From positions 1-23,246 of the IMG/VR virus record IMGVR_UViG_3300042564_004206: 23,246 nt of DNA, one strand, 5' to 3'. The DNA comes from a virus. Below, piece after piece: positions 1,874 to 23,174 of the stretch; positions within the stretch are counted from its first letter, which is position 1, and each line of letters starts with the position of its first letter. Made by a program: the position numbers and the translations under genes. Under the pieces are notes generated by a model. The model saw nothing but the letters and a program-made list of their open reading frames with translations. It had not been told where the DNA came from and searched no databases.

Positions 1874-1889
1874 CTACATCATTGTGATA
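1874..1889 (-). promoter_or_regulatory. Operator/stoperator-like site over the RusA stop codon
   Basis: The minus strand reads TATCACAATGATGTAG, a match to TATCACAANNSTGATA in the left half and centre with a degenerate right half. It overlaps the last codons and TGA of the RusA gene (translated L-S-Q-stop). It reads in the direction of transcription. Confidence 0.6.
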
Positions 1890-4605: not shown

Positions 4606-7521
4606 TTAGTTGCTGCGCACACGGGTGGCAGTGATGATCGACTCGGTGATCTGCTCATACGAGTGGTCAGGGTGTCCGTCGATGTGGGCCACCAGGGTCT
4701 CCGGGTCCATCGTCGAGCTGTAGTGCTCGGCGTGCACGAAGGCTCGACTGCGAACGCTGGGACCGCGCACATCGATCTCGATGATCTCGCCCGAGTCGAT
4801 CAGCGACGACAGCGCATTGTTCAGGTCCAGCGGCTTGGCGGCGCGTGCTTGCCTGATGGACGAGATGATCATCGACTTCGGGAACCCGATGGCGCCACCG
4901 AAGGTTTGTGTCTTTCGCTTGACTCCATACGGCCGGCGCAGGAACTCCTTGATCTTGTTCATCAGCGCCTCGTGATCGGAGCCGCTCAGATTGGACGTCA
5001 GCACATCTTCCATCCGCAACATGCAGTGCTTGGCCAGACCGAACGCCCAGGTGATCGACGACGGGCCGATCTCCAGGCCGCGCTCGCTGTCGCGCGCTGC
5101 GATGTATTCCTCTGCCGTGTGGCTTGTGCACGCGTGCACCAGGGCCAGACGCTGCAGCAGGGCGCCGAAGCGGGTCCACAGATCAACCATCCCCTTGCGC
5201 TTGGCCACCTCGACTGCACCGTCGAGCCAGGGCTGCACGATGGACTCAGCGATGTGCATCGCTGGCGCCGTAAGCCTGACGGTGGGAGCGTGCTCCGGCG
5301 TGCGGCCAACCAGATTCCCAGTGCCCGGCACGATCGGCGCCGAGGAGTGCACGGCCGCCATCCAGTGCGTCAGTCCCACTGGCACACCAGCGCCAGCGTC
5401 GGAGTAGCGCAGGCCCAGCGAAGCCCGCGACTGGGCCGGGCTCTCGAGAAGCATCAGGCGATTCAAGAAGCCCGACGCCATGTCGGCCCCGTTGAGCGCC
5501 TCGTACAGCGTGTCGGCCGTGGTCGTTGCATACACGTTCAGGCACGGGTAGACGATCGCCCTGGCGGCCTTGGCCTTGGTGTCGCTGTACATCGTGCCGA
5601 CGTAGGTCTGCTCGGCCGCTCCAGTCAGCGCCAGCAGCTCTTTGATGATGCCGTGCTTCGGGCTGTTCTCACGCTTGGCCGACTGCAGCAGCAGGCCGAA
5701 CTCGTCGAGCTGCAGGAGCGTGCTCGGGTGCTCTGCAATGCGAGACACAATGGCCGGGCCCGATGCTGGGTCGCCGCCCTCCAGGTGCGCCAGATTGGCC
5801 GACGCCAGGGCCCGCCTGATGCATTTGCGGCCGTGCTCTTTGCCGGTGCCGGTTGCTGCGGTGGCCACGATGTAGAGATTGGTCCGCAGGCCCGTGCCAG
5901 TGCGGACCATGCGACCCAGCACGGTCGCAGCCAGGGCCAAGCTCGCCGCCAGGGCCAGCTCGCTCTGTGGCTCGGTCGGCTGGGTGGCCATCATCCAGTC
6001 GTATGCCGTGCGCAGCTGCAGCGGCATGTCGTCCAACACCTTCTGCGGGATCTTGACCGCACGCCCCAGCGGCTGGGCCTGCTCGGCTGCTCGGTTGGTG
6101 TTGCGCTCGATGGCGTCGACCGCGGCCGGCGGCAGCACGCTGGGCGCCACAGCCTGGGTGAACCACGTCGGCCGAGCTTCGGGAGGCAACTCGTGCTCGG
6201 GCAGCGGCGTCGGATCTGGCAGCGTCACACCCAGGGCCGCAGCCTGCCGCTTGGCCGTGCCAGCAATCAGCCGAGCGATGGCCGGGTCGGGCTCATGCAC
6301 GAGGTTGTAGGTCGTGTTGGTGCCGGAGTCATAGACAAACGGCTCGCCCCGCTGGGTCAGGCCAACGAAGGCGGCCCAGCTGCTGGACTCGCGGAACGGG
6401 GCTTGGCAGCGGACCTTCAGCCCAGGCTGCAGCGTGGCCGCCACCTGGGCCAGCGTCATCATGCCGTCGCGCGTCTCGATCGGCGTCGTCGGGCGCAGGC
6501 CGTCCTCGCGGAACTGCGCCACCCCGCCCTCCCCGTCGCGCTCCATCAACACCGGCCGGCCGGCTGCCGTGGTCACGGTGACCAGATCGTCCTCGTCTGG
6601 CAGCTCCAGATCCGCGCAGACGTCGTCGGTCGTGCCGCGGTGGATCTCGACAGTCTGCGGATGCACGATCAGCCCCGACCCGTGGTCGACCGTCGGCGCG
6701 CCGCAGAAGACCAGCCGCTCCAGGGCCAGGACGCTGTCGTCCAGCAGGCAGCGCCAGTCCTGGGCCACCGCCCTGGTCGGGTCGTCCTTCGCATACTTGT
6801 TGACCAGCCACGCCTTGCCGGTGGCCAGCGCCCTGGCGCGCACGGCCGCCTTCAGCTGGTCCCGGTCGACCGGGTGGTCGAGCCTGACGAATGTGTGCCC
6901 TGCCTTGCTGCCCGGCTTGCCGCCATATTCGGTGACCCGTGCAGAGCTGGACAGGGTCGACACCCTGGTGGCCGCGCTGATGCCTGGGATGACGTCGTCC
7001 AGCGCCCGCAGGAAGGCCTCGTGCGACAGGCTGGCGAAGGTGGCCGGCGTCTGCGCGTCGATGTCCCGGTCGATCAGCGCCCACCGCGATGGCCGCGCGT
7101 TGTGCTTCGTGCGGCAGACCGCGATGTTCGTCTGACCCAGCGGGTCGGTCAGAACGTGGATGCCGTCCAGCTCCTCGTCACTGATCGCGGCCGGGTCGGT
7201 CACACCCTGGATGGTCATCAGCGCGCCACGCATCAGGCCGCGCGAGACCAGCCTGAACTCGACGCCCACCGGCACGCCGAAGTGCCCCAGGATCAGTGCT
7301 GTGGTGTTGCGCTCGCTCGCGTACTGGATGACCTGGGCCAGCTCCTCGTGTGTGCGGCAGCGCACGGTGTAGGCCTCCCCGTCGACCAGCATCACGTTGC
7401 TGCTCTTCGTGCCGTCGGCGTGGATGCGCTTGCCCAGCGGCACATCGTCGGTGACGATCGTGATGCAGTAGTCGTCGGGCAGATCAGCCCCTGCTGGGGC
7501 TTGGTATTCGATGTCTTTCAT
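4606..7521 (-). CDS. Primase/replicative helicase, AEP-like N-part with DUF3987-type ATPase
   Basis: This 971-aa protein is the main replication protein. An N-terminal part has archaeo-eukaryotic-primase-like motifs: LIDRDID (149-155, metal-binding D-x-D) and SKAGHTFVRLD (205-215, an s-x-H-type motif). A middle linker (370-500) is rich in Pro/Ala. The C-terminal half is a RecA-fold helicase with Walker A AATGTGKEH (555-563; K561), Walker B LLQLDEFGLLL (D606, E607) and a final ~100-residue region that looks like a winged helix. Such phage primase-helicases make primers and unwind DNA at the origin. The start ATG at 7521 has AAGGGA 4 nt upstream. A promoter and operator precede it, directly against a terminator for the upstream genes. 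The helicase call is strong. The primase call rests on two motifs and spacing; the third acidic residue is not assigned. Confidence 0.88.
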   Translation of the reverse strand: MKDIEYQAPAGADLPDDYCITIVTDDVPLGKRIHADGTKSSNVMLVDGEAYTVRCRTHEELAQVIQYASERNTTALILGHFGVPVGVEFRLVSRGLMRGALMTIQGVTDPAAISDEELDGIHVLTDPLGQTNIAVCRTKHNARPSRWALIDRDIDAQTPATFASLSHEAFLRALDDVIPGISAATRVSTLSSSARVTEYGGKPGSKAGHTFVRLDHPVDRDQLKAAVRARALATGKAWLVNKYAKDDPTRAVAQDWRCLLDDSVLALERLVFCGAPTVDHGSGLIVHPQTVEIHRGTTDDVCADLELPDEDDLVTVTTAAGRPVLMERDGEGGVAQFREDGLRPTTPIETRDGMMTLAQVAATLQPGLKVRCQAPFRESSSWAAFVGLTQRGEPFVYDSGTNTTYNLVHEPDPAIARLIAGTAKRQAAALGVTLPDPTPLPEHELPPEARPTWFTQAVAPSVLPPAAVDAIERNTNRAAEQAQPLGRAVKIPQKVLDDMPLQLRTAYDWMMATQPTEPQSELALAASLALAATVLGRMVRTGTGLRTNLYIVATAATGTGKEHGRKCIRRALASANLAHLEGGDPASGPAIVSRIAEHPSTLLQLDEFGLLLQSAKRENSPKHGIIKELLALTGAAEQTYVGTMYSDTKAKAARAIVYPCLNVYATTTADTLYEALNGADMASGFLNRLMLLESPAQSRASLGLRYSDAGAGVPVGLTHWMAAVHSSAPIVPGTGNLVGRTPEHAPTVRLTAPAMHIAESIVQPWLDGAVEVAKRKGMVDLWTRFGALLQRLALVHACTSHTAEEYIAARDSERGLEIGPSSITWAFGLAKHCMLRMEDVLTSNLSGSDHEALMNKIKEFLRRPYGVKRKTQTFGGAIGFPKSMIISSIRQARAAKPLDLNNALSSLIDSGEIIEIDVRGPSVRSRAFVHAEHYSSTMDPETLVAHIDGHPDHSYEQITESIITATRVRSN

Positions 7522-7540
7522 GCGTCCCTTCTAGAATGAG

Positions 7541-7562
7541 AAAAGCCGGCTCGCGGCCGGCT
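7541..7562 (-). terminator. Rho-independent terminator upstream of the primase gene
   Basis: On the minus strand a 7-bp stem AGCCGGC/GCCGGCT with a 5-nt loop (plus positions 7544-7562) runs into TTTTCTC. It closes the small-gene transcript that ends with the gene at 7591-7935 and lies 23 nt before the primase ATG. Confidence 0.8.
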
Positions 7563-7564
7563 CT

Positions 7565-7594
7565 GATCTTACATCAGCATTGTGATACTGTCAC
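7565..7594 (-). promoter_or_regulatory. Operator-controlled leftward promoter for primase/helicase genes
   Basis: On the minus strand GTGACA and TAAGAT (plus positions 7566-7571) are 17 bp apart. The spacer carries a complete operator TATCACAATGCTGATG at 7572-7587. The expected start point falls inside the terminator hairpin, so this transcript would escape the terminator while read-through from upstream would not. Confidence 0.6.
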
Positions 7595-7935
7595 ACGAGA
7601 ATTGCCTTGCCGTCGTCGCCTGCCCTGACCGTGATCACTGTGGCGTCTACCCAGCAGATGAATTCAGACAGCTCGGTCACATCGAGCGGCGTCTTCCCGG
7701 CGGCGTCGCAGGCGAACATCCTCAGTGACTGCTCGCCATTGAATCCGACCACCAGGGCCATCCTCCCGTGAACCAGCACAAGTTCAGGCTTGACGCGATA
7801 CCGCTCCGGCGGGTAATTAAGCAGCGGCTCCTCGATGTCGCGCCAGGACGAGTCGCAGCGCTGCAGCTGCAAGGTCTTGCCTTCAGCCAGCGCCGCCACG
7901 AGCGGCAGGTAGCCGATTGCTTCGTGCTTATTCAT
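7591..7935 (-). CDS. Hypothetical phage protein with PERYRVKPE motif (114 aa)
   Basis: ATG at 7935 has AAGGAG 6 nt upstream. It overlaps the previous stop as TAATG. The first half (GKTLQLQRCDSSWRDIEEPL, then NYPPERYRVKPELVLVHG) matches a pattern common in small phage proteins, a Trp-containing strand pair followed by YR(V/I)KPE. The rest is mostly beta strand. I know of no experimental function for such proteins. It is the last gene before the terminator at 7541-7562, and its stop is 3 nt from an operator. The gene is surely real; the role is unknown. Confidence 0.82.
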   Translation of the reverse strand: MNKHEAIGYLPLVAALAEGKTLQLQRCDSSWRDIEEPLLNYPPERYRVKPELVLVHGRMALVVGFNGEQSLRMFACDAAGKTPLDVTELSEFICWVDATVITVRAGDDGKAILV

Positions 7936-8301: not shown

Positions 8302-8342
8302 CATAAGCATTGTGATTCTCTGACTGTATCACAATGCTGATC
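8302..8342. promoter_or_regulatory. Inverted pair of operators
   Basis: AGCATTGTGAT at 8306-8316 and its exact complement at 8328-8338 are separated by 11 bp. Each arm is the core of one operator: minus AATCACAATGCTTATG (8302-8317) and plus TATCACAATGCTGATC (8327-8342). The pair fills the gap between the DUF2829 gene (stop at 8342) and the 43-aa membrane gene. It could be a dimer-of-dimers site or, in RNA, an 11-bp hairpin. Confidence 0.75.
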
Positions 8343-9137: not shown

Positions 9138-9153
9138 AATAACGATTGTGATA
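9138..9153 (-). promoter_or_regulatory. Operator-like site between the Cro-like gene and the next gene
   Basis: The minus strand reads TATCACAATCGTTATT, with a perfect left half and degenerate right half. It lies in the 55-bp gap after the Cro-like gene and reads with transcription. No good -35 is seen, so it may act as a roadblock rather than a promoter operator. Confidence 0.55.
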
Positions 9154-9811: not shown

Positions 9812-9825
9812 TCTCCACAAAGTTG

Positions 9826-9856
9826 TTGACGCCTGATATCACAAGCGTGATATAGT
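9826..9856 (+). promoter_or_regulatory. Promoter-operator cassette P1
   Basis: TTGACG (9826-9831) is followed by the operator TATCACAAGCGTGATA (9837-9852) and TATAGT (9851-9856), preceded by TG for an extended -10. The spacer is 19 bp to TATAGT or 17 bp to GATATA. It drives the NinX-like gene. From the operator through AGTCAAGCCAT it is identical to P2. Confidence 0.8.
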
Positions 9857-9897
9857 CAAGCCATTGCAACAGCGCTGCGGCGCAACGGGAGATGGCC

Positions 9898-10359
9898 ATG
9901 ATGATCAACACGAGCGACCTGATCAGGCGTCAACTTGACTGGGCGGTGGCAAAGGCGCTGGGCCACGAGACGAAGATCCGCAGCTGGAAGGACATCACCG
10001 ACACCATCGACCCAGTTGAGGATGCCGACATGATCGAGTTCCACAGGGCCAACAACACTGTCAGCGTTTCGTCTGCGCAGATCCCCGGCGGCGGCTGGTT
10101 CCCGACTCCGAAGTATTCGACCGACTGGGCGCATGGCGGGCCGATCATCGATCGGGAGATCCACAACCTGTTCAAGTGGAATCAGCTGGACCCGAGCGCG
10201 CCGGAGATGTGGTGCGGGGTGCACAACGTCAAGGACGACAGCGGAATTCTTGCCATCAACCGAGACGGTCCGACCCCACTGATAGCAGCCATGCGCTGCT
10301 TCGTCGCCAGCAAGCTGGGCGATGTGATCGATATGCCAGACGAGCTGGCCCAGGCATAA
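9898..10359 (+). CDS. DUF2591 (NinX-like) phage protein
   Basis: Three ATGs lie close together; 9898 is chosen because GGGAG sits 6 nt upstream (9901 is also possible, and 9892 abuts the site). The 153-aa protein has the family signature: LIRRQLDWAVAKALG at the N-terminus, YSTDWAHGGPIIDREI in the middle, and GPTPLIAAMRCFVASKLGD near the C-terminus. DUF2591 proteins occur in the nin regions of lambdoid phages and in many betaproteobacterial prophages; their function is not established. It is the first gene expressed from P1, directly after the repressor, where early host-interaction genes are found. Confidence 0.85.
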   Translation: MMINTSDLIRRQLDWAVAKALGHETKIRSWKDITDTIDPVEDADMIEFHRANNTVSVSSAQIPGGGWFPTPKYSTDWAHGGPIIDREIHNLFKWNQLDPSAPEMWCGVHNVKDDSGILAINRDGPTPLIAAMRCFVASKLGDVIDMPDELAQA

Positions 10360-10369
10360 GGAGACAGCC

Positions 10370-10687
10370 ATGAAGATCGCCGAGATCCGCCGCATCATCA
10401 ACTCAGCCAACTGGTCCCGCCTGGATCTGCATGGCGCCACCCGTGACGAGTTCATCAAGATGGACGTCGGCCAGCGCCTGTATCGCCATGTCGTGGCCCT
10501 GCGCGCCCTGGAGATCGCACCAAGGTTCGCCGACGACATCCGCGCCCGAGACAGCGCGGCCGAGGCCTGCCTCGCCATGATCGGCCGCTGGGAGGGGCTG
10601 CGAGCCATCAGCCCCGTGACGGTGGCTAACCATGAGGCGCGCACGCACGGGCCGCGGCTTGTGGTTGACAACACGAAATCTTGTTGA
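10370..10687 (+). CDS. Hypothetical protein, 105 aa
   Basis: ATG at 10370 follows AAGGAGACAGCC, a strong ribosome site, and lies 10 nt after the NinX-like gene, so both are read from P1. The protein is basic and helical (RRIINSANWSRLDLHGATRD, DVGQRLYRHVVALRALEIAP). No motif is recognised. Its TGA stop (10685-10687) lies inside the TTGACA -35 of cassette P2, so gene end and next promoter share bases. Confidence 0.75.
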   Translation: MKIAEIRRIINSANWSRLDLHGATRDEFIKMDVGQRLYRHVVALRALEIAPRFADDIRARDSAAEACLAMIGRWEGLRAISPVTVANHEARTHGPRLVVDNTKSC

Positions 10688-10714
10688 CAGCGAATATCAC
10701 AAGCGTGATATAGT
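10684..10714 (+). promoter_or_regulatory. Promoter-operator cassette P2
   Basis: TTGACA (10684-10689), operator TATCACAAGCGTGATA (10695-10710) and TATAGT (10709-10714) have the same spacing as P1. The perfect -35 makes it probably the strongest of the set. It drives the two genes at 10744-11236. Confidence 0.82.
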
Positions 10715-10743
10715 CAAGCCATCGCAACGCAACGGAGATCAGC

Positions 10744-11016
10744 ATGATCAAGACCATCACGAAGAACGCGCACCAACTTCGCAAGGGTGACATCGTCCTG
10801 TTTTATGGCGGCCGCTTTGAGGTGGTCACTGATCTGCGCGAGTCCAGCGGGCACCGCCCAGAAGGCTACTGGCCCGAGGCTGGTGTCGGCCCGTCGGATT
10901 GTGTGGTCTGCGAGGCAACCTGTTTGAGCGGCGAGGTGCGCGGTTACTTCCGCCCGGGCAGCTCTTGGACATTCCAGGGCAACCACCGCGCCACGTTCGC
11001 TGTTGTCGCGCAGTAA
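10744..11016 (+). CDS. Hypothetical beta-rich small protein, 90 aa
   Basis: ATG at 10744 follows ACGGAGATCAGC. The sequence reads HQLRKGDIVLFYGGRFEVV and later FRPGSSWTFQGNHRATFAVV, so it is probably a small beta barrel. It has two Cys in DCVVCEATC but no clear zinc motif. It is the first gene after cassette P2 and is followed 10 nt on by another small gene with a near-identical ribosome site (AAGGAGACCACC). No known family is recognised with confidence. Position suggests an early host-takeover or anti-defence gene; that is inference. Confidence 0.78.
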   Translation: MIKTITKNAHQLRKGDIVLFYGGRFEVVTDLRESSGHRPEGYWPEAGVGPSDCVVCEATCLSGEVRGYFRPGSSWTFQGNHRATFAVVAQ

Positions 11017-11026
11017 GGAGACCACC

Positions 11027-11236
11027 ATGATAATCAACCTCAAAGCTAAGTCCGTCTACGGTCAGATCAAGTTCTACCCTGCCGGGCCGTTCGCCCAGGC
11101 CGTGGCCGACACCGCTGGCACGAAGACCATCGAGCCGCGCATCCTCAAGATCTGGGCCGGCCAGGGCGCCAGCATCCTGATCGTCGATGGCGGCAGCACC
11201 GAGGCCCACGAGCTCCTGGCTGCGCACGGCATCTGA
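11027..11236 (+). CDS. Hypothetical protein, 69 aa
   Basis: ATG at 11027 is chosen for the AAGGAGACCACC directly upstream. The product begins MIINLKAKSVYGQIKFYPAG, a beta-strand start common in small phage proteins, followed by QAVADTAGTKTIEPRILKIW and a short helical end. The N-terminal YGxxKFYP pattern is one I associate with small phage proteins, without a known function. It is co-transcribed with the preceding gene from P2 and is followed by cassette P3 nine nucleotides after its stop. Confidence 0.75.
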   Translation: MIINLKAKSVYGQIKFYPAGPFAQAVADTAGTKTIEPRILKIWAGQGASILIVDGGSTEAHELLAAHGI

Positions 11237-11245
11237 AGAAAGTTG

Positions 11246-11276
11246 TTGACGATATGCATCACGCTTGTGATATGAT
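11246..11276 (+). promoter_or_regulatory. Promoter-operator cassette P3
   Basis: TTGACG (11246-11251), operator CATCACGCTTGTGATA (11257-11272) and TATGAT (11271-11276) use the same spacing as P1 and P2. Here the operator centre reads GCTT, so the asymmetric core is inverted relative to the promoter, unlike the others. The leader (GATGCAAGCTCTG) resembles that of P4. Confidence 0.8.
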
Positions 11277-11307
11277 GCAAGCTCTGCAATGCAAACAGGG
11301 GATCGAA

Positions 11308-11511
11308 ATGAACACCACAGTCTTCGCACTCACAGTCGCCACCAGTGACCACAATGGCCGCCTCGTCGCAAGCGTGATCGCGCACTTTGAGTTCAGCAAC
11401 GATGGCCGCAAGGCTGCAGAGCTGGCGATGAATGCGATCCCTGATGCCGGCCTCGTTGGCCCGGTCGGCAGCGCCAAGTACCCGCTTGGACACCAATACT
11501 TCGCCGAGTGA
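11308..11511 (+). CDS. Hypothetical protein, 67 aa
   Basis: ATG at 11308 has AGGGGATC upstream. The sequence (NTTVFALTVATSDHNGRLVA, then VIAHFEFSNDGRKAAELAMN) suggests two beta strands and a helix, ending near VGSAKYPLGHQYFAE. It is the only gene between cassettes P3 and P4, so each promoter here serves one gene or a pair. Its stop lies 2 nt before the TTGACA of P4. No family is recognised. Confidence 0.72.
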   Translation: MNTTVFALTVATSDHNGRLVASVIAHFEFSNDGRKAAELAMNAIPDAGLVGPVGSAKYPLGHQYFAE

Positions 11512-11512
11512 G

Positions 11513-11543
11513 TTGACACTGAGTATCACAATGGTGATATGAT
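11513..11543 (+). promoter_or_regulatory. Promoter-operator cassette P4
   Basis: TTGACA (11513-11518), operator TATCACAATGGTGATA (11524-11539) and TATGAT (11538-11543) form the fourth cassette with identical spacing. This operator is a full match to the consensus and differs from the intragenic site at 17334 only in the last two bases. Confidence 0.82.
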
Positions 11544-11574
11544 GCAATCTCTGAAACGAAATCAGGAGAGCAAG

Positions 11575-11769
11575 ATGAACGACAGCCAAAAAGAAGCCAT
11601 CGCCACAGCTGACGCGCACACCAGCAACGTCGGCCTGCCGACGTACAGTGAGCTGGTGGAGGCGCTGCGCAAGCTGCACAGCGAGGGTCAGATGTACATG
11701 GCTCGCCATCGCTTGGATCGCAGCGCGATGGCCGACGCTGCCGCCCTGCTCGCCCGCACCCCCAACTGA
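11575..11769 (+). CDS. Small helical protein with GLPTYSELVEAL motif (64 aa)
   Basis: ATG at 11575 follows CAGGAGAGCAAG. The sequence has NVGLPTYSELVEALRKLHSE, then MYMARHRLDRSAMADAAALL. It shares a pattern with the next gene product: LPTYS, an AL-x2-L helix, a YM pair and an A-x-ALL end. The two look like old tandem paralogues. No family or function is recognised. It is read from P4 together with 11784-12014. Confidence 0.72.
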   Translation: MNDSQKEAIATADAHTSNVGLPTYSELVEALRKLHSEGQMYMARHRLDRSAMADAAALLARTPN

Positions 11770-11783
11770 ACAAGGAGACCACC

Positions 11784-12014
11784 ATGCCAATGCACCCCGG
11801 AGAAGCCGTAAAACTCAGCCCGGCCACAGCCGCCAACATCAAGCTGCTGGATCAGGCCGCGCGCCTGGGTTCGCTGCCCACTTACTCGCAGCCGCTCGCC
11901 GCGCTGAACAATCTGGAGCTGGCCTGCAGTGGCGTCAGCTACATGGAGCGCGAGTACGCGGAGGAACTGAGCGGCGCGCGCGCTCTGCTTGAGAAGTTCG
12001 ATCAGGTGAGCTGA
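11784..12014 (+). CDS. Small helical protein, probable paralogue of the preceding gene (76 aa)
   Basis: ATG at 11784 follows AAGGAGACCACC, almost the same ribosome site as at 11027. The product contains RLGSLPTYSQPLAALNNLEL, then SYMEREYAEELSGARALLEK, aligned in order with LPTYS, AL-x2-L, YM and ALL of the upstream protein. The N-terminal ~25 residues are extra. Tandem diverged copies behind a repeated promoter cassette suggest the region grew by duplication. Confidence 0.75.
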   Translation: MPMHPGEAVKLSPATAANIKLLDQAARLGSLPTYSQPLAALNNLELACSGVSYMEREYAEELSGARALLEKFDQVS

Positions 12015-12212: not shown

Positions 12213-13091
12213 GTGACTATCAAGCAAGTGCACGGCCGCGAGATCTACACCCCGCAGCAGCTTCAGAAGATCCTGGCCTATGACCCGGAGACTGGCGCCA
12301 TCACGGTGCGCAAGACGGGCGCCAGCGCACGCGGCAAGACGGGCCGCAGCAGCAGCCGGGTCTCGGTCAATGGGACCGTCACGGCAGCCAGCACCATCGT
12401 CCACGCGCTGATGGTGGGCGAGTGGCCGGCGATGTCGCAGACCCGCTACGTCGATGGCGACGCCAACAATCTGGCCTGGGCCAACATCATCTATGTGGGC
12501 GGCGGCAAGACGGCCGAGGCGGCGGGCAATCGGCACGAGGTGTCTGCGCGGCGCCAGCTGCTGGAGATGTTCCGCGCAAACCCGACCGGGGTCTACGGCA
12601 TCCGCGACATCGCCAAGGCGCTGCCTGGGCTGCCCAAGGCAACAGTCAGCACCTGCCTGACCGCGCTGCGCCGATCGTGCGACATCCACATCGCGGCCCT
12701 GGACAGCGAGTTCTATGCGGCCAGCGGCCGCGCCGCTGCGCGCTTCACCTACGGCCCGGCGCCAGAGGGTTACGAGTCGGCCAACATTCGCCTGGACCTT
12801 GCTGCGGTGCAGGCTGCAGTGCAGGCGCTGATGAAGAAGCCGAGCTACTCAGCAAAGAAGAAGGCACTGGCACTGGCCCGCCTGGAGGCAGCCCCCAAGG
12901 TCACCCTGGCAGGCGCCGACGCGAGCACGACCGAGGACGAGGATGAGGAGTGGTTCAAGATCGCCAGCAGCAAGAGCCTGAAGCAAGCCAACGGCACGAT
13001 TGCCAACGTCATGCGCGACCGTGTGCCGGTGTCGATCTTCTCGATGGCCGCGATGGGTCGCCTTCCCTCTATCTCTGTATCACAATGCTGA
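12213..13091 (+). CDS. Degenerate HNH-derived DNA-binding protein with winged-helix region
   Basis: GTG at 12213 is chosen for the AAGGAG about 8-10 nt upstream; an ATG at 12150 would add 21 residues. The N-terminal ~95 residues follow phage HNH endonucleases: ILAYDPETGAITVRK, a VNG strand, VGEWP (68-72) and VDGDANNLAWANI (80-92). The catalytic parts are lost: the usual AHRLAW is AASTIVHAL, and the DH of the usual IDHINGD is replaced (TRYVDGD). Residues ~110-160 (RRQLLEMFRANPTGVYGIRD, LPKATVSTCLTALRR) look like a winged helix, followed by a Lys-rich linker and an acidic DEDEEW stretch near 250. I infer a domesticated DNA-binding regulator, not a nuclease. Its last codons overlap an operator and the next gene's start. 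Confidence 0.75.
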   Translation: MTIKQVHGREIYTPQQLQKILAYDPETGAITVRKTGASARGKTGRSSSRVSVNGTVTAASTIVHALMVGEWPAMSQTRYVDGDANNLAWANIIYVGGGKTAEAAGNRHEVSARRQLLEMFRANPTGVYGIRDIAKALPGLPKATVSTCLTALRRSCDIHIAALDSEFYAASGRAAARFTYGPAPEGYESANIRLDLAAVQAAVQALMKKPSYSAKKKALALARLEAAPKVTLAGADASTTEDEDEEWFKIASSKSLKQANGTIANVMRDRVPVSIFSMAAMGRLPSISVSQC

Positions 13092-13093
13092 AC
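13078..13093 (+). promoter_or_regulatory. Operator-like site over a stop/start junction
   Basis: TATCACAATGCTGAAC covers the last codons and TGA of the HNH-derived gene, and its ATG is the start codon of the next gene (13085). The left half and centre are perfect and the right half is partial. No -35 is seen. Confidence 0.55.
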
Positions 13094-13351
13094 GAACAAC
13101 GAATCAAGACCGCGACGAACGCGCTGCGCGATCTGTCTGAGCGCATCGACGCACTCACCCGCGAGATCGTCAACACGAACGCGCTGCTGGCCGATGTGTA
13201 TCGGGAGACCGGCACCGGCAACGTCGCCACGATGGCGTCGACTTACACCTACGAGGCCAGCACCGCACTGCTGCGCACCGCCGAACTGGTCGAGGCGCGC
13301 ACGAAAAAAAAATCACAACATCGCACCCCAGTAATCACAATGCTGATATAG
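13085..13351 (+). CDS. Hypothetical helical protein, 88 aa
   Basis: ATG at 13085 lies within the operator-like site and overlaps the upstream gene by 7 nt. No ribosome site precedes it, so translation probably depends on coupling. The protein is one long helix pair (LNEQRIKTATNALRDLSERI, DALTREIVNTNALLADVYRE) and a Thr/Ala-rich region. Near the 3' end a run of nine A encodes Lys residues and could allow slippage. The last residues, PVITMLI, are encoded by the P5 operator, so the gene ends inside the next control site. No family is recognised. Confidence 0.65.
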   Translation: MLNEQRIKTATNALRDLSERIDALTREIVNTNALLADVYRETGTGNVATMASTYTYEASTALLRTAELVEARTKKKSQHRTPVITMLI

Positions 13352-13352
13352 T
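13333..13352 (+). promoter_or_regulatory. Promoter/operator P5
   Basis: Operator AATCACAATGCTGATA (13333-13348) overlaps TATAGT (13347-13352) exactly as in P1-P4, but no -35 is recognisable at the right distance. A second half-site, AATCACAAC, lies at about 13312. It precedes the 27-aa membrane peptide and the genes after it. Confidence 0.65.
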
Positions 13353-13385: not shown

Positions 13386-13469
13386 ATGAAGCTGAACATT
13401 GACGACATCGTCGGCGTGGCCGCAGTCCTGATCGGGCTGGTGGCATGGCAGGGAGGCCTGCTGTGGTGA
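13386..13469 (+). CDS. 27-aa single-span membrane peptide
   Basis: ATG at 13386 follows AAAGAGGAACGC, a good ribosome site. The peptide MKLNIDDIVGVAAVLIGLVA continues to WQGGLLW. It has a short acidic head and one hydrophobic segment of about 17 residues, so it is probably a single membrane helix. It is the first gene after P5, and its stop overlaps the next start as GTGA. The coupling and strong ribosome site support a real mini-gene. Confidence 0.62.
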   Translation: MKLNIDDIVGVAAVLIGLVAWQGGLLW

Positions 13470-13891
13470 GCGCTGCTGATCAAAACATCACAATGCTGAA
13501 AGAGCTGCTCGACAAGTTGAGTGACGCGACTGCAGCAATGAACGCAGCGATGGCGCCGCACTCCGTGATCGTTGCCGGGCTGAGGGCGCAGGCAGAAACG
13601 CTGGCCAAGGAGATCATCGGCCCGATCAGCGAGGGCGAGAAGTCGATCAACGTGGCCGACGTATACACGGTCAGGGTGGCCAAGCCCGCGACGCGCGACG
13701 CGGACAGCGAAGCTATCAAGCAGGCCTGGGAGCGACTGCCTGCCGCCGTGCAGGAGTGTTTCAGGTTCGAAGCTGCGATCGACCTGCGTCGGCTGCGCAA
13801 GCTGAGTGATGCCGATGCCACCACCGCAGCCGCGCTGTACACCACCAGGGTTGGCGAGGCCAAGGTCAAGATCGAGGTGCGCAAGCCATGA
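13466..13891 (+). CDS. Hypothetical protein, 141 aa, upstream of the recombination genes
   Basis: GTG at 13466 overlaps the previous stop and has GGGAGG about 9 nt upstream. The alternative ATG at 13493 lies in an operator-like site and has no ribosome site. The N-terminal half is a helical region (LKELLDKLSDATAAMNAAMA, VIVAGLRAQAETLAKEIIGP). Next comes VADVYTVRVAKPATRDADSE and a helical stretch with AWERLPAAVQECFRFEAAID. The fold looks helical with a small sheet. Such proteins often precede phage recombinases as nuclease inhibitors or mediators, but I cannot assign this one. Confidence 0.75.
   Translation: MSAADQNITMLKELLDKLSDATAAMNAAMAPHSVIVAGLRAQAETLAKEIIGPISEGEKSINVADVYTVRVAKPATRDADSEAIKQAWERLPAAVQECFRFEAAIDLRRLRKLSDADATTAAALYTTRVGEAKVKIEVRKP
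13486..13501 (+). promoter_or_regulatory. Operator-like site at the 5' end of the 141-aa gene
   Basis: CATCACAATGCTGAAA lies over codons 7-12 of the gene starting at 13466, or over its start codon if ATG 13493 is used. In frame it encodes ITML, as also at 13333 and 23154. Confidence 0.5.
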
Positions 13892-14120: not shown

Positions 14121-14873
14121 ATGGGTTTCAATCTTGCATCTATCACCCGCGGAGCCGTGCAGAAGCCGCCCCGCATCGTGCTGTACGCACCGCATGGCGT
14201 CGGCAAGACCACGTTCGGCGCCTGCGCACCGAGCCCCATCCTGCTGCCGTTCGAAGATGGTGTGGGCCGCCTGGACATCCCGACATTCCCGCTGATCAAG
14301 AGCTGGGCCGAGACGGTCGAGGCGCTGAATACGCTGATCACCGAGCAGCACGACTTCAAGACAGTCGTGGTTGACACACTCGACTGGTTCGAGCCGATGG
14401 TGTGGGCCGAGGCGTCGAGCCGCAATAGCTGGAAGGACATCGAGCAGCCGGGGTTCGGCAAGGGCTACATCGCAGCGGCCGACGTCTGGCGTGAGTTCCT
14501 GGAGGCGCTGAACGTCCTGCGCGACGAGCGTGGCATGCAGATCATCCTGCTGGCACACAGCGAGGTGAAGCGCTTCGATGACCCGACGACGGATGGCTAC
14601 GATCGCTACCAGATCAAACTGCAGAAGCGTGCCGCCGAGATCGTGCAGGAGTGGGGTGACGCTGTCCTGTTCGCTAACTTCAAGAGCTACACCACTCAGT
14701 CGGATGCTGGCTTCAACAAGAAGACCACCCGCGGGGTCGGCACTGGCGAGCGCGTGATGTACACCGAGGAGCGCCCGTCGCACTACGCTAAGAATCGCTA
14801 CCAGTTGCCGGCCGAGATCCCATTCTCATACGCCGACTTCGATGCGGCAATGAACCCGGCGGTGCAGGCATGA
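14121..14873 (+). CDS. RecA-like phage recombinase ATPase, Sak4-type
   Basis: The 250-aa protein is a P-loop ATPase of the RecA-fold phage group (Sak4/AAA_24). Walker A is APHGVGKTT (23-31) with K29, and Walker B is TVVVDTLDW with D85. LLAHSEVKRF follows, as expected for a sensor segment. Sak4 proteins bind single-stranded DNA and promote annealing, usually with a phage SSB. A DUF669 SSB-like gene lies 0.5 kb downstream, which supports this. The start ATG at 14121 has AAGG about 10 nt upstream. The stop overlaps the next start as ATGA. The family assignment is good; activity is by homology. Confidence 0.88.
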   Translation: MGFNLASITRGAVQKPPRIVLYAPHGVGKTTFGACAPSPILLPFEDGVGRLDIPTFPLIKSWAETVEALNTLITEQHDFKTVVVDTLDWFEPMVWAEASSRNSWKDIEQPGFGKGYIAAADVWREFLEALNVLRDERGMQIILLAHSEVKRFDDPTTDGYDRYQIKLQKRAAEIVQEWGDAVLFANFKSYTTQSDAGFNKKTTRGVGTGERVMYTEERPSHYAKNRYQLPAEIPFSYADFDAAMNPAVQA

Positions 14874-16068: not shown

Positions 16069-16088
16069 AATCACAATGCTGATATGAT
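16069..16088 (+). promoter_or_regulatory. Promoter/operator P6
   Basis: AATCACAATGCTGATA (16069-16084) overlaps TATGAT (16083-16088) as in the other cassettes. A half-site TATCACACAGCG lies at 16049-16060. The -35 is not recognisable. It starts a transcript for 16125-16373 and perhaps the nuclease and helicase genes. Confidence 0.65.
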
Positions 16089-16124: not shown

Positions 16125-16373
16125 ATGACCACCGAAACCACCACCGCAAAGGCCCTGCCCCGCACCCGCGTCTATCGCGTCACCAGCCCCGACGGCACCA
16201 GCAAGGTCGTCGAGTCCACCACGCGCAATCGCGCCATCAGCTACGTCGCCAAGGATGGCTACAAGGCAGAGGTGATGTCGAGCGGCGATCTGCTGGAGGC
16301 GATGCGCGCTGGCGAAGAGCTGCACTCTGCAGTCGACGACCAGCAGGCCGAGGGCGGCGAAGCCCAGGCCTAA
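16125..16373 (+). CDS. Small phage protein, 82 aa
   Basis: ATG at 16125 follows AAGGAGATCCAC. The sequence RVYRVTSPDGTSKVVESTTR continues NRAISYVAKDGYKAEVMSSG, then a helix and an acidic Gln/Glu tail. The VYRV...VVE(S/A)TT...A...V pattern resembles small proteins I have seen near replication genes of Burkholderia and Pseudomonas phages, with no known function. It has its own operator-bearing promoter-like site and is followed by a hairpin. Confidence 0.78.
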   Translation: MTTETTTAKALPRTRVYRVTSPDGTSKVVESTTRNRAISYVAKDGYKAEVMSSGDLLEAMRAGEELHSAVDDQQAEGGEAQA

Positions 16374-16445: not shown

Positions 16446-17507
16446 ATGGCAGCACTCCCACCGCAGGCCCAGAACACCCTGGCCGGCAAGATCAGCGCGA
16501 GCATCGTCCGTCAGTACGAGACCGCGCAGGAAGACAGCAGGCGCCCGCACCTGGGCGCGTCCATCATCGGCCTCGAGTGCTCGCGCCAGATCTGGTACAG
16601 CTTCCGCTGGGCCAGGACGATGAAGCACGAAGGGCGCCTGCTCCGGCTGTTCGCGTCCGGTCATCTGGCCGAGCCGCGCTTCGCTTCCGATCTGCGCTCG
16701 ATCGGGTGCGAGGTCATTCAAGACATCGACGGAAAGCAGATCGGATTCAAGGCACTCGGCGGCCACTTCGCTGGCAGCACCGACGGCATGGGCCGCGGCT
16801 TTGAGTACGCGCCACGCGCCTGGGCCGTGCTGGAGTACAAGACGCACTCGGCGAAGTCCTTCTCAAATCTCAAGAAGGTCTTGGTCAAGGCCGCAAAGCC
16901 CGAGCACTACGCGCAGATGCAGGTCTACATGGCCAAGCTGGGCGTGGATCGCGCGCTGTACCTCGCAGTCAACAAGGACACCGACGAGCTACACGACGAG
17001 TGGATTCATCTCGACGCCGACTTCGCCGCGCGCACCGAGGACAAGGCAAAGCGCATCATCACCGCTAACGTCCCGCCTGCAGGCATCAGCGTCGACCCGT
17101 CGTGGTATCAGTGCAAGTACTGCGACTACCACGCTCTGTGCCACGGTGATGCAGTGCCCGAGGTGACATGCCGCAGCTGCGCGCACTCGACCCCGGTGAT
17201 CGACCGTGAAGGTGGCGTGTGGGCCTGCGACAAGTGGGGATGCGACATCCCTGGCGCCGACGCGCAGAAGGCGGCCTGCGGATCTCATCGGTACATCCCG
17301 ATCCTGCTGGCCAACTCTTCGACGCCCCATGACTATCACAATGGTGACGTCGTCTACCAGTCGAAGCACGACGGCAAGTTGTTCGCAAACGGTGAAGGCC
17401 CGGCCGCCTTCTCGTCTCAGGAGATCTTCACCGCCGGAAGCAAGGCGGCCCTGGGCGAGATGGCTGAGTACAAGGGCATGTTCCCTGGGTCGAAGGTGGT
17501 CGCATGA
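16446..17507 (+). CDS. PD-(D/E)XK Fe-S exonuclease, Cas4/RecB-like, with second Cys cluster
   Basis: ATG at 16446 has GGAGACACAC upstream. Over 353 aa the nuclease core shows STDG with D113, then VLEYKT with E130 and K132, and QMQVY (Q157, Y161). Four Cys fit the iron-sulfur layout of Cas4/AddB nucleases: C45 in IIGLECSRQIWYSF and C223, C226, C232 in CKYCDYHALC. A second cluster follows (C242, C245, C261, C266, C278), probably a zinc ribbon, which is not part of the Cas4 core. Beside a Sak4-like ATPase and a DUF669 protein it is likely the phage's DNA-end-resecting exonuclease, the lambda Exo counterpart. An operator-like site lies inside at 17334-17349. Confidence 0.88.
   Translation: MAALPPQAQNTLAGKISASIVRQYETAQEDSRRPHLGASIIGLECSRQIWYSFRWARTMKHEGRLLRLFASGHLAEPRFASDLRSIGCEVIQDIDGKQIGFKALGGHFAGSTDGMGRGFEYAPRAWAVLEYKTHSAKSFSNLKKVLVKAAKPEHYAQMQVYMAKLGVDRALYLAVNKDTDELHDEWIHLDADFAARTEDKAKRIITANVPPAGISVDPSWYQCKYCDYHALCHGDAVPEVTCRSCAHSTPVIDREGGVWACDKWGCDIPGADAQKAACGSHRYIPILLANSSTPHDYHNGDVVYQSKHDGKLFANGEGPAAFSSQEIFTAGSKAALGEMAEYKGMFPGSKVVA
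17334..17349 (+). promoter_or_regulatory. Intragenic operator in the nuclease gene
   Basis: TATCACAATGGTGACG matches the P4 operator in its first 14 bases. It is translated as DYHNGD, so it is also coding sequence. It has no promoter elements and reads with transcription, as a roadblock would. Confidence 0.55.
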
Positions 17508-22944: not shown

Positions 22945-23174
22945 TTGGACTTCGTCTCGACGTCCTTCTGCGCCACGACGCGCGCGATGGCAGCGGCCAT
23001 CGCCACAGCCGCGGCTGCCTTTGCGAAGGTGCCGCTGGGCACATCGGGCGCCAGCATGGGCATGGCCGCCTCCAGGCCAGACAGCAGGCCAGACAGCAGG
23101 ATGAGCCGCATGCTCCAGGCCTTGTTCAAGATGGCGCGCCACTCAGGCGTCAGCTTCAGCATTGTGATATTCAC
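22941..23174 (-). CDS. Holin-like protein (77 aa)
   Basis: GTG at 23174 has AAGGA 6 nt upstream and overlaps the stop of the gene to the right (GTGA). A second start, ATG at 23162, lies inside an operator-like site; dual starts are known in holins. Two membrane segments fit: LILLSGLLSGLEAAMPMLA and FAKAAAAVAMAAAIARVVA, with basic ends (KAWSMR; QKDVETKSK). The W(S)(M/I)RLILLSGLLSG pattern is common in small holins of Burkholderiales phages (DUF7940-like). It directly precedes the endolysin. Confidence 0.82.
   Translation of the reverse strand: MNITMLKLTPEWRAILNKAWSMRLILLSGLLSGLEAAMPMLAPDVPSGTFAKAAAAVAMAAAIARVVAQKDVETKSK
23154..23169 (-). promoter_or_regulatory. Operator-like site over the holin start
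   Basis: Minus strand TATCACAATGCTGAAG covers codons 2-7 of the GTG-started holin, or its second start ATG. In frame it encodes ITML, as at 13333 and 13486. It extends the operator set into the late lysis genes. Confidence 0.55.

Follow-up and report, generated by a model that had tools for sequence, protein, structure and literature searches.

Dispersed operator-like sites and an array of small promoter-operator gene units in the early region of an uncultured temperate phage

The early region and its operator-like sites

The IMG/VR record IMGVR_UViG_3300042564_004206, analysed here over its whole length of 23,246 bases (the window), carries a divergent repressor switch, an array of small genes behind four promoter-like cassettes (P1–P4) and many copies of an operator-like site scattered along both transcription arms. 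By its gene calls and family searches, the source is a temperate tailed phage with a tyrosine integrase; among named phages there is no nucleotide match to the whole window. The switch is formed by divergent genes for CI-like and Cro-like repressors of the P22/434 helix-turn-helix (HTH) families, the arrangement seen in lambdoid CI/Cro immunity. The leftward arm runs from Cro through small genes, a DUF3987-type primase-like protein and an AAA/PIF1-like helicase to RusA. The rightward arm contains CI, the small-gene array, the conserved gene c0, a Sak4-like ATPase, DUF669, a PD-(D/E)XK (Cas4-like) nuclease and a DEAD/ResIII helicase, after which the integrase gene converges on this arm. A search of the Sak4 gene against genome contigs gave no match.

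All four cassettes reported in a preliminary description of this DNA lie where it placed them (Table 1). As it also noted, P1 and P2 have the same letters from the operator through TAGTCAAGCCAT, and P3 and P4 carry a common leader motif, GATGCAA[GT]CTCTG. The spacing that it called locked, 5 nt from hexamer to operator and 19 nt from hexamer to hexamer, is kept in all four cassettes of the window. It is not kept in related phages, where the -35-like hexamer is poor or its distance to the operator is 1–5 nt, longer or undefined, so that the conserved unit is the operator together with the -10. A feature missing from the preliminary description is the TGA that precedes the -10 (TGATATAGT or TGATATGAT), which creates an extended -10 inside the operator. 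The window has no matches to TTGAC-N14..20-TA[TC]..T other than P1–P4. When cassettes are sought by dyad symmetry (TTGAC, a 6+4+6 dyad and TAxxxT at fixed spacing, with the operator letters ignored), the window yields four and 200 dinucleotide-preserving shuffles yield none. The exact full-cassette pattern has two and eleven scattered single matches in the viral and genome collections, respectively, which were judged to be chance and not inspected further.

The operator sites are not limited to positions 9822–12014, the stretch of the preliminary description; they are spread over the genome and are not special to the array. With up to three mismatches, the window contains 19 operator-like sites against 3.1 expected, a number reached by none of 100 shuffles. 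The half-site ATCACAATG is present in 13 copies in the 23-kb window, compared with 0.06 expected, and these copies lie mostly at gene junctions and point with transcription. For the counts of orientation and boundary, P4 was left out and one ATCACATTG site was added (n = 13). Twelve of the 13 are co-directional with transcription, the copy at 8327 being the sole window site that opposes it, and nine fall at a strict gene boundary, compared with 15.5% of random positions. Downstream of the imperfect operators at 13333 and 16069 stands the extended -10 known from P1–P4, and both are probably further promoters, the first of them being the probable fifth. At the end of gene 7591-7935, the minus strand carries a half-site and a terminator-like hairpin with its T-run in tandem (7540-7587).

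The genes of the array had been described as unknown. This description stands for most of them, for which no family was matched, and fails for the first, which encodes a P22 NinX protein (PF10765) with distant homologues (28–42%) in named phages. Only one of the seven cassette genes, the c9 member, has homologues in the relatives; in the window it is the second gene of the P2 unit, and in the relatives it usually comes first behind its own promoter-operator. Nearly all of the products tested are without a family, the exceptions being NinX in the window and an HD-domain phosphohydrolase in one relative, and none of the window's own cassette genes could be linked to a host-interaction function. 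A NinX-bearing phage (L005) was considered as a comparable case and set aside, as no similar promoter-operator array was seen in it.

Table 1. Coordinates of genes, cassettes and operator-like sites in the window (aa, amino acids; oriented, pointing with transcription)
Feature	Coordinates	Strand	Remarks
Half-site at RusA gene end	1874..1889	-	oriented
Half-site at helicase start codon	4585..4600	-	oriented
Half-site just past gene 7591-7935	7572..7587	-	oriented; before GC-rich hairpin and T-run
Divergent half-site pair (8302 -, 8327 +)	8302..8342	both	upstream of leftward gene
Weaker operator-like site	9138..9153	-	between cro and next leftward gene
Cro-like repressor, 65 aa	9174..9371	-	P22 Cro family, PF14549 E 4.1e-12; first gene of leftward arm
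CI-like HTH repressor, 123 aa	9440..9811	+	PF01381 E 2.7e-9
P1	9826..9856	+	TTGACG 9826, 5 nt, operator TATCACAAGCGTGATA 9837-9852, TATAGT 9851 overlapping operator end
P1 unit gene 1, NinX family, 153 aa	9898..10359	+	PF10765 E 1.5e-17, 64.3 bits (gathering score 22.6)
P1 unit gene 2, 105 aa	10370..10687	+	no family
P2	10684..10714	+	TTGACA 10684, operator 10695-10710, TATAGT 10709
P2 unit gene 1, 90 aa	10744..11016	+	weak phrog_10286 match, residues 4-39, E 7e-10
P2 unit gene 2, 69 aa	11027..11236	+	cluster c9 (15 members)
P3	11246..11276	+	TTGACG 11246, operator CATCACGCTTGTGATA 11257-11272, TATGAT 11271
P3 unit gene, 67 aa	11308..11511	+	no family
P4	11513..11543	+	TTGACA 11513, operator TATCACAATGGTGATA 11524-11539, TATGAT 11538
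P4 unit gene 1, 64 aa	11575..11769	+	no family
P4 unit gene 2, 76 aa	11784..12014	+	no family
Half-site TATCACAATGCTGAAC	13078..13093	+	oriented; junction of genes 12213-13091 and 13085-13351
Imperfect operator, then extended -10, AATCACAATGCTGATATAGT	13333..13352	+	matches operator-promoter before c0 in relatives
c0, conserved gene	13463..13891	+	phrog_2480 E 1.4e-12; 25 members; right edge of variable island
Half-site CATCACAATGCTGAAA near c0 start	13486..13501	+	oriented
Sak4-like ATPase	14121..14873	+	opens conserved recombination block
Half-site at DUF669 start codon	15344..15359	+	oriented
Imperfect operator with extended -10, AATCACAATGCTGATATGAT	16069..16088	+	between DUF669 and 16125-16373
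Half-site within Cas4-like gene	17334..17349	+	exception to junction rule
Half-site at start of right end's first leftward gene	23154..23169	-	oriented

Conserved sites and variable units in related phages

A search with the Cas4-like protein led to two loci, L008 and L009, and their Sak4 gene led to about 75. The proteins of L008 and L009 are about half identical to those of the window, yet both loci are enriched for the same 9-mer. Orthologues of Cro are found in about two dozen loci (duplicates from the same phage counted) and orthologues of CI, ~41–51% identical to the window protein, in about 20. The same operator and half-site recur in relatives together with these orthologous repressors. 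The Cro-carrying loci contain 93 exact TATCACA[AT]TG half-sites, 84 of which follow the divergent arms, and permuted motifs average 0.2 each. Set against gene calls, the relatives have 138 sites, of which 128 are co-directional and 117 lie at gene boundaries, compared with 21.5% at random. One 57.9-kb genome (G001), 85% coding and arranged in three gene-direction blocks, has 15 half-sites in addition to its promoter operators; 14 of the 15 are co-directional, by counts that rest on scored gene calls, and 14 of the 15 are at boundaries.

The sites fall into two classes. Near-perfect dyads overlap a promoter -10, and about 90 such modules with a palindromic operator occur in the relatives; imperfect dyads lie at gene junctions, with their perfect half upstream. 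The second half of the sites is biased towards C, pyrimidine, A/T and A/T at positions 11, 12, 14 and 15, which indicates imperfect dyads and not single-strand motifs, and fits a DNA dyad bound by a dimer. The idea that a terminator insulates each unit by preceding its promoter was rejected, since only 2 of 90 modules conform. In some relatives (L160:6792-6850, L112:4660-4714) a terminator-like hairpin follows CI, and its T-run merges into the first cassette promoter's -35.

Between CI (or Cro) and the c0-Sak4-DUF669 genes, the relatives carry roughly 1–6 promoter-operator modules, each driving 1–4 small genes. The gene content of this island is mostly different between phages and the flanks are fixed, with families such as c9, c12, c13, c17 and c21 recurring in differing combinations. 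The earlier proposal of an expandable array is supported: module number and gene content vary, and close relatives differ in having or lacking one unit. The block is not the single fixed operon that would have spoken against that proposal, as only 11027-11236 is shared with the relatives, there usually in another unit. The analogy drawn with the ral/kil region of lambda is reasonable in view of the place of the array between the switch and the recombination genes. Within the island of L153 (6772-7488, with a homologue in L173), a phosphoesterase-like gene lies on the opposite strand and has a half-site in its own orientation. L029:3011-3237 contains dense direct and inverted copies of TGCGACAGT that are iteron-like and possibly mark the replication origin of another phage.

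A unit of ~0.7 kb, consisting of a promoter and two genes, is present in L138, L142 and L124 and missing from L137. At the L137 junction the flanks overlap by 22–44 nt, which is the promoter-operator itself, as unequal recombination between two copies of the module would leave it. Of the mosaic junctions, 24.6% fall within 20 bp of a site, compared with 5.3% for random positions (4–5 times). This one exact gain or loss and the excess of mosaic junctions fit a scheme in which module copies would recombine to add, remove or swap one accessory unit at a time, each repressed in the lysogen and expressed on infection, so that small, possibly anti-host genes could be acquired without an integrase. 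We regard the scheme as possible but doubtful, since in about 15 further indels separating close relatives the junctions are elsewhere, in many cases at start regions with short homology, and gene starts with a module are barely richer in adjacent junctions than other gene starts (0.53 versus 0.47). As a general route of turnover, recombination between promoter copies is unsupported, most unit turnover proceeding without the promoter repeats.

Most long cassette leaders in the relatives fold as two consecutive hairpins just past the expected transcription start and before the ribosome-binding site (e.g. L110:3780-3866, L142:8363, L173:7829 and L175:7857). In 16 of these leaders, picked by eye as two-hairpin cases, compensatory changes fill 22 cells compared with 7 in shuffles (0/500), a covariation that supports the structure and does not prove it. 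The hairpins belong to the relatives only; they were rejected as part of the window's cassettes because the P2–P4 leaders are without them. Two consecutive covarying hairpins at a similar leader position recall the put RNA of HK022, a two-stem leader that turns RNA polymerase terminator-resistant (PMC9378689), although the stems in the relatives are shorter. Rfam gave no credible match for the leaders. A conserved leader of ~155 nt (GCACGGAGTGAGTTGGGTAAGTCTTCTGGCCTCACGGCAC) precedes some first-unit genes (L122:4971-5128, L143:807, L162:2082, L172:7503), and it too is without an Rfam match in L143 and L162.

The candidate repressor and its proposed action at the sites

The CI of these phages is a single-HTH protein of 114–123 aa, close to P22 C2/434, and the CI of one relative matches the P22 C2 and 434 repressors. 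Pfam and PHROGs scans detect no S24 peptidase domain in the window CI. In named phages the window CI has no match and the relative's CI gets matches at the HTH level only. Among solved structures, the sole match to the window CI is the ICEBs1 Xre-family regulator. Given this match and the missing S24 domain, the prophage may depend on an antirepressor or on a separate protease for its induction. The Cro orthologues of the relatives have a conserved TQP..SNW recognition segment, and a TQ..(I/L)SN segment is kept in both CI and Cro. We infer that the two proteins read the same site, for which the common segment is the simplest reason. CI is the likely binder of the operators, and the single repressor earlier proposed for the array is plausible, with CI and Cro both candidates. 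Three loci, L122 (cro at 4854), L124 (4641) and L138 (2016), keep Cro and operators with no recognisable CI, and L137, a close relative, has CI; the three are possibly natural CI deletions.

We propose that the early region of this temperate phage is controlled by dispersed-operator immunity, exerted by a CI/Cro-type repressor and combined with an accessory array of operator-promoter units, a reading to which we give a probability of roughly 0.7. A lambda/P22-type CI dimer, and probably also Cro through the common recognition segment, would bind the 16-bp dyad TATCAC-N4-GTGATA. At the strong palindromic copies, which lie between the -35 and the extended -10 of P1–P4, bound repressor would block initiation. 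The weaker junction copies have one perfect half, TATCACA[AT]TG, upstream and a degenerate second half near CTGATA, and protein bound there would most likely stop elongating RNA polymerase, as at the stoperators of mycobacteriophage L5. Both arms would thereby be silent in a lysogen. With the repressor lost or not yet made, every promoter would fire separately and supply the one or two small proteins of its unit. Accessory-gene turnover would take place in the island from CI to the recombination genes, and a unit arriving with its own promoter-operator would come under the prophage repressor at once.

Several observations weigh against this proposal. A sigma-70 scan with 16–18 bp spacers finds no promoter at P1–P4, for which reason their promoter function is putative; their 19-bp spacer lies outside the usual sigma-70 range, although the extended -10, with its TG in the operator, could compensate for the length. 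CI is not of the L5 repressor type, and a polarity-specific elongation block is therefore less expected. By the strict test, only nine of the 13 half-sites in the window count as lying at a gene boundary, and some half-sites overlap start codons, which a translational role would fit as well. Sites from related phages are not independent of one another, and the three loci without a recognisable CI keep theirs, so that something other than CI may preserve the sites.

The preliminary description had a single repressor acting at a few early promoters, and by extension the other half-sites would be remnants or weak operators, titrating repressor without any effect on elongation. The palindromic copies do overlap the -10 in P1–P4 and in the relatives, the sites at 13333 and 16069 are promoter-like, and a symmetric dimer has no obvious polarity, all of which agree with action at promoters only. 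Most half-sites, however, are without promoter hexamers, lie at junctions and follow transcription (84/93 and 128/138), and since titration needs none of these properties we consider this account unlikely.

The main binder could instead be Cro or a host regulator, the sites serving to tune lytic expression and not to maintain lysogeny. Cro is present in more loci than CI, and the three loci without a recognisable CI keep Cro along with the sites. Yet most relatives keep CI with the same sites, CI has the TQ..(I/L)SN segment too, and the Cro-only phages may be recent CI deletions; the primacy of Cro or a host protein is rather improbable.

The half-sites would have a different meaning if they were translation-linked elements of the mRNA, like the Start-Associated Sequences of Cluster K mycobacteriophages (PMC3203893), with only an incidental likeness to the operator. 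Several copies lie between the ribosome-binding site and the ATG, with the ATG within the motif, and others stand just before AGGAG. Such a role leaves unexplained that the first half is the operator half-site and that the second half retains the dyad bias. The copy at 7572 lies downstream of a gene, the ATG at 1874, 13333 and 16069 opens a frame of only two or three codons, and many copies in the relatives read TATCACATTG, which has no ATG. These features make a translational role a poor candidate. That P1–P4 merely reflect recent duplication without shared control, as the pairwise similarity of P1/P2 and P3/P4 might suggest, is contradicted by relatives with the same operator in different surroundings and a CI about half identical, and by the dyad-based test (0/200 shuffles), and is extremely improbable.

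Relation to known repressor systems

The immunity region of lambda has a comparable layout: a divergent CI/Cro switch, with accessory small genes (ral/kil) placed before the recombination genes. In lambda the operators are grouped in two clusters at two promoters, and the early genes form a single long operon that relies on N antitermination; in the window phage, in contrast, each small unit has its own operator-promoter. The repressor of φC31 is dimeric and binds conserved inverted repeats, and the many palindromic sites are associated with several early promoters; φC31 is a Streptomyces phage, however, and its repressor is not known to be related.

The closest behavioural likeness is to the Cluster A mycobacteriophages L5 and Bxb1, in which 20–30 dispersed stoperators lie at promoters and in short intergenic spaces, mostly oriented with transcription, and serve one repressor (PMC6550527, PMC9283540). 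The phages described here likewise have many dispersed copies, co-directional in 12/13, 128/138 and 14/15 cases and mostly at gene boundaries, and their two site classes match the distinction between operator and stoperator in distribution and orientation (PMC6550527, PMC9283540). The L5 sites are 13–14 bp long, without dyad symmetry, and are bound by a monomer with HTH and Stoperator domains, and Cluster A is without the usual Cro-like switch. The window phage, in contrast, has 16-bp dyads, perfect or near-perfect at promoters and imperfect at junctions, and P22/434-type CI and Cro. As judged from its sites and genes, the system resembles L5 by behaviour but falls outside the L5 class on repressor type and site symmetry.

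Phage P1, a temperate phage of Gram-negative bacteria, has 22 dispersed operators for its C1 repressor, but these are 17 bp long and asymmetric, and Coi and Lxc are present (PMC8546580). Cluster O mycobacteriophages such as Corndog have more than 30 17-bp dyads, many of them between small genes, and recombination between two repeats has apparently removed a segment in some of their genomes (PMC4351075). Their repeats differ from the sites described here in being mostly not promoter-linked and, by their symmetry, without direction, and it is not obvious that these phages are temperate (PMC4351075).

The phage family and its layout look new, although comparable systems of dispersed sites have been described in a few phages unrelated to it. 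Dispersed repressor sites oriented with transcription have been described in actinobacterial phages (PMC6550527, PMC9283540) and dispersed asymmetric operators in P1 (PMC8546580). That dozens of uncultured phages show the pattern with dyad operators and an ordinary CI/Cro pair suggests that silencing of a whole genome by the prophage repressor is more general and has arisen more than once. It also makes testable the question of whether a symmetric dimer can impose a polar elongation block from a site that is asymmetric in quality. The operator promoter is a marker for finding small accessory genes of the early region; hardly any of these match a known family, and they may be candidates for host interaction or counter-defence. 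In this family a single repressor could keep the entire genome silent, along with any newly arrived gene unit that carries a switch of its own.

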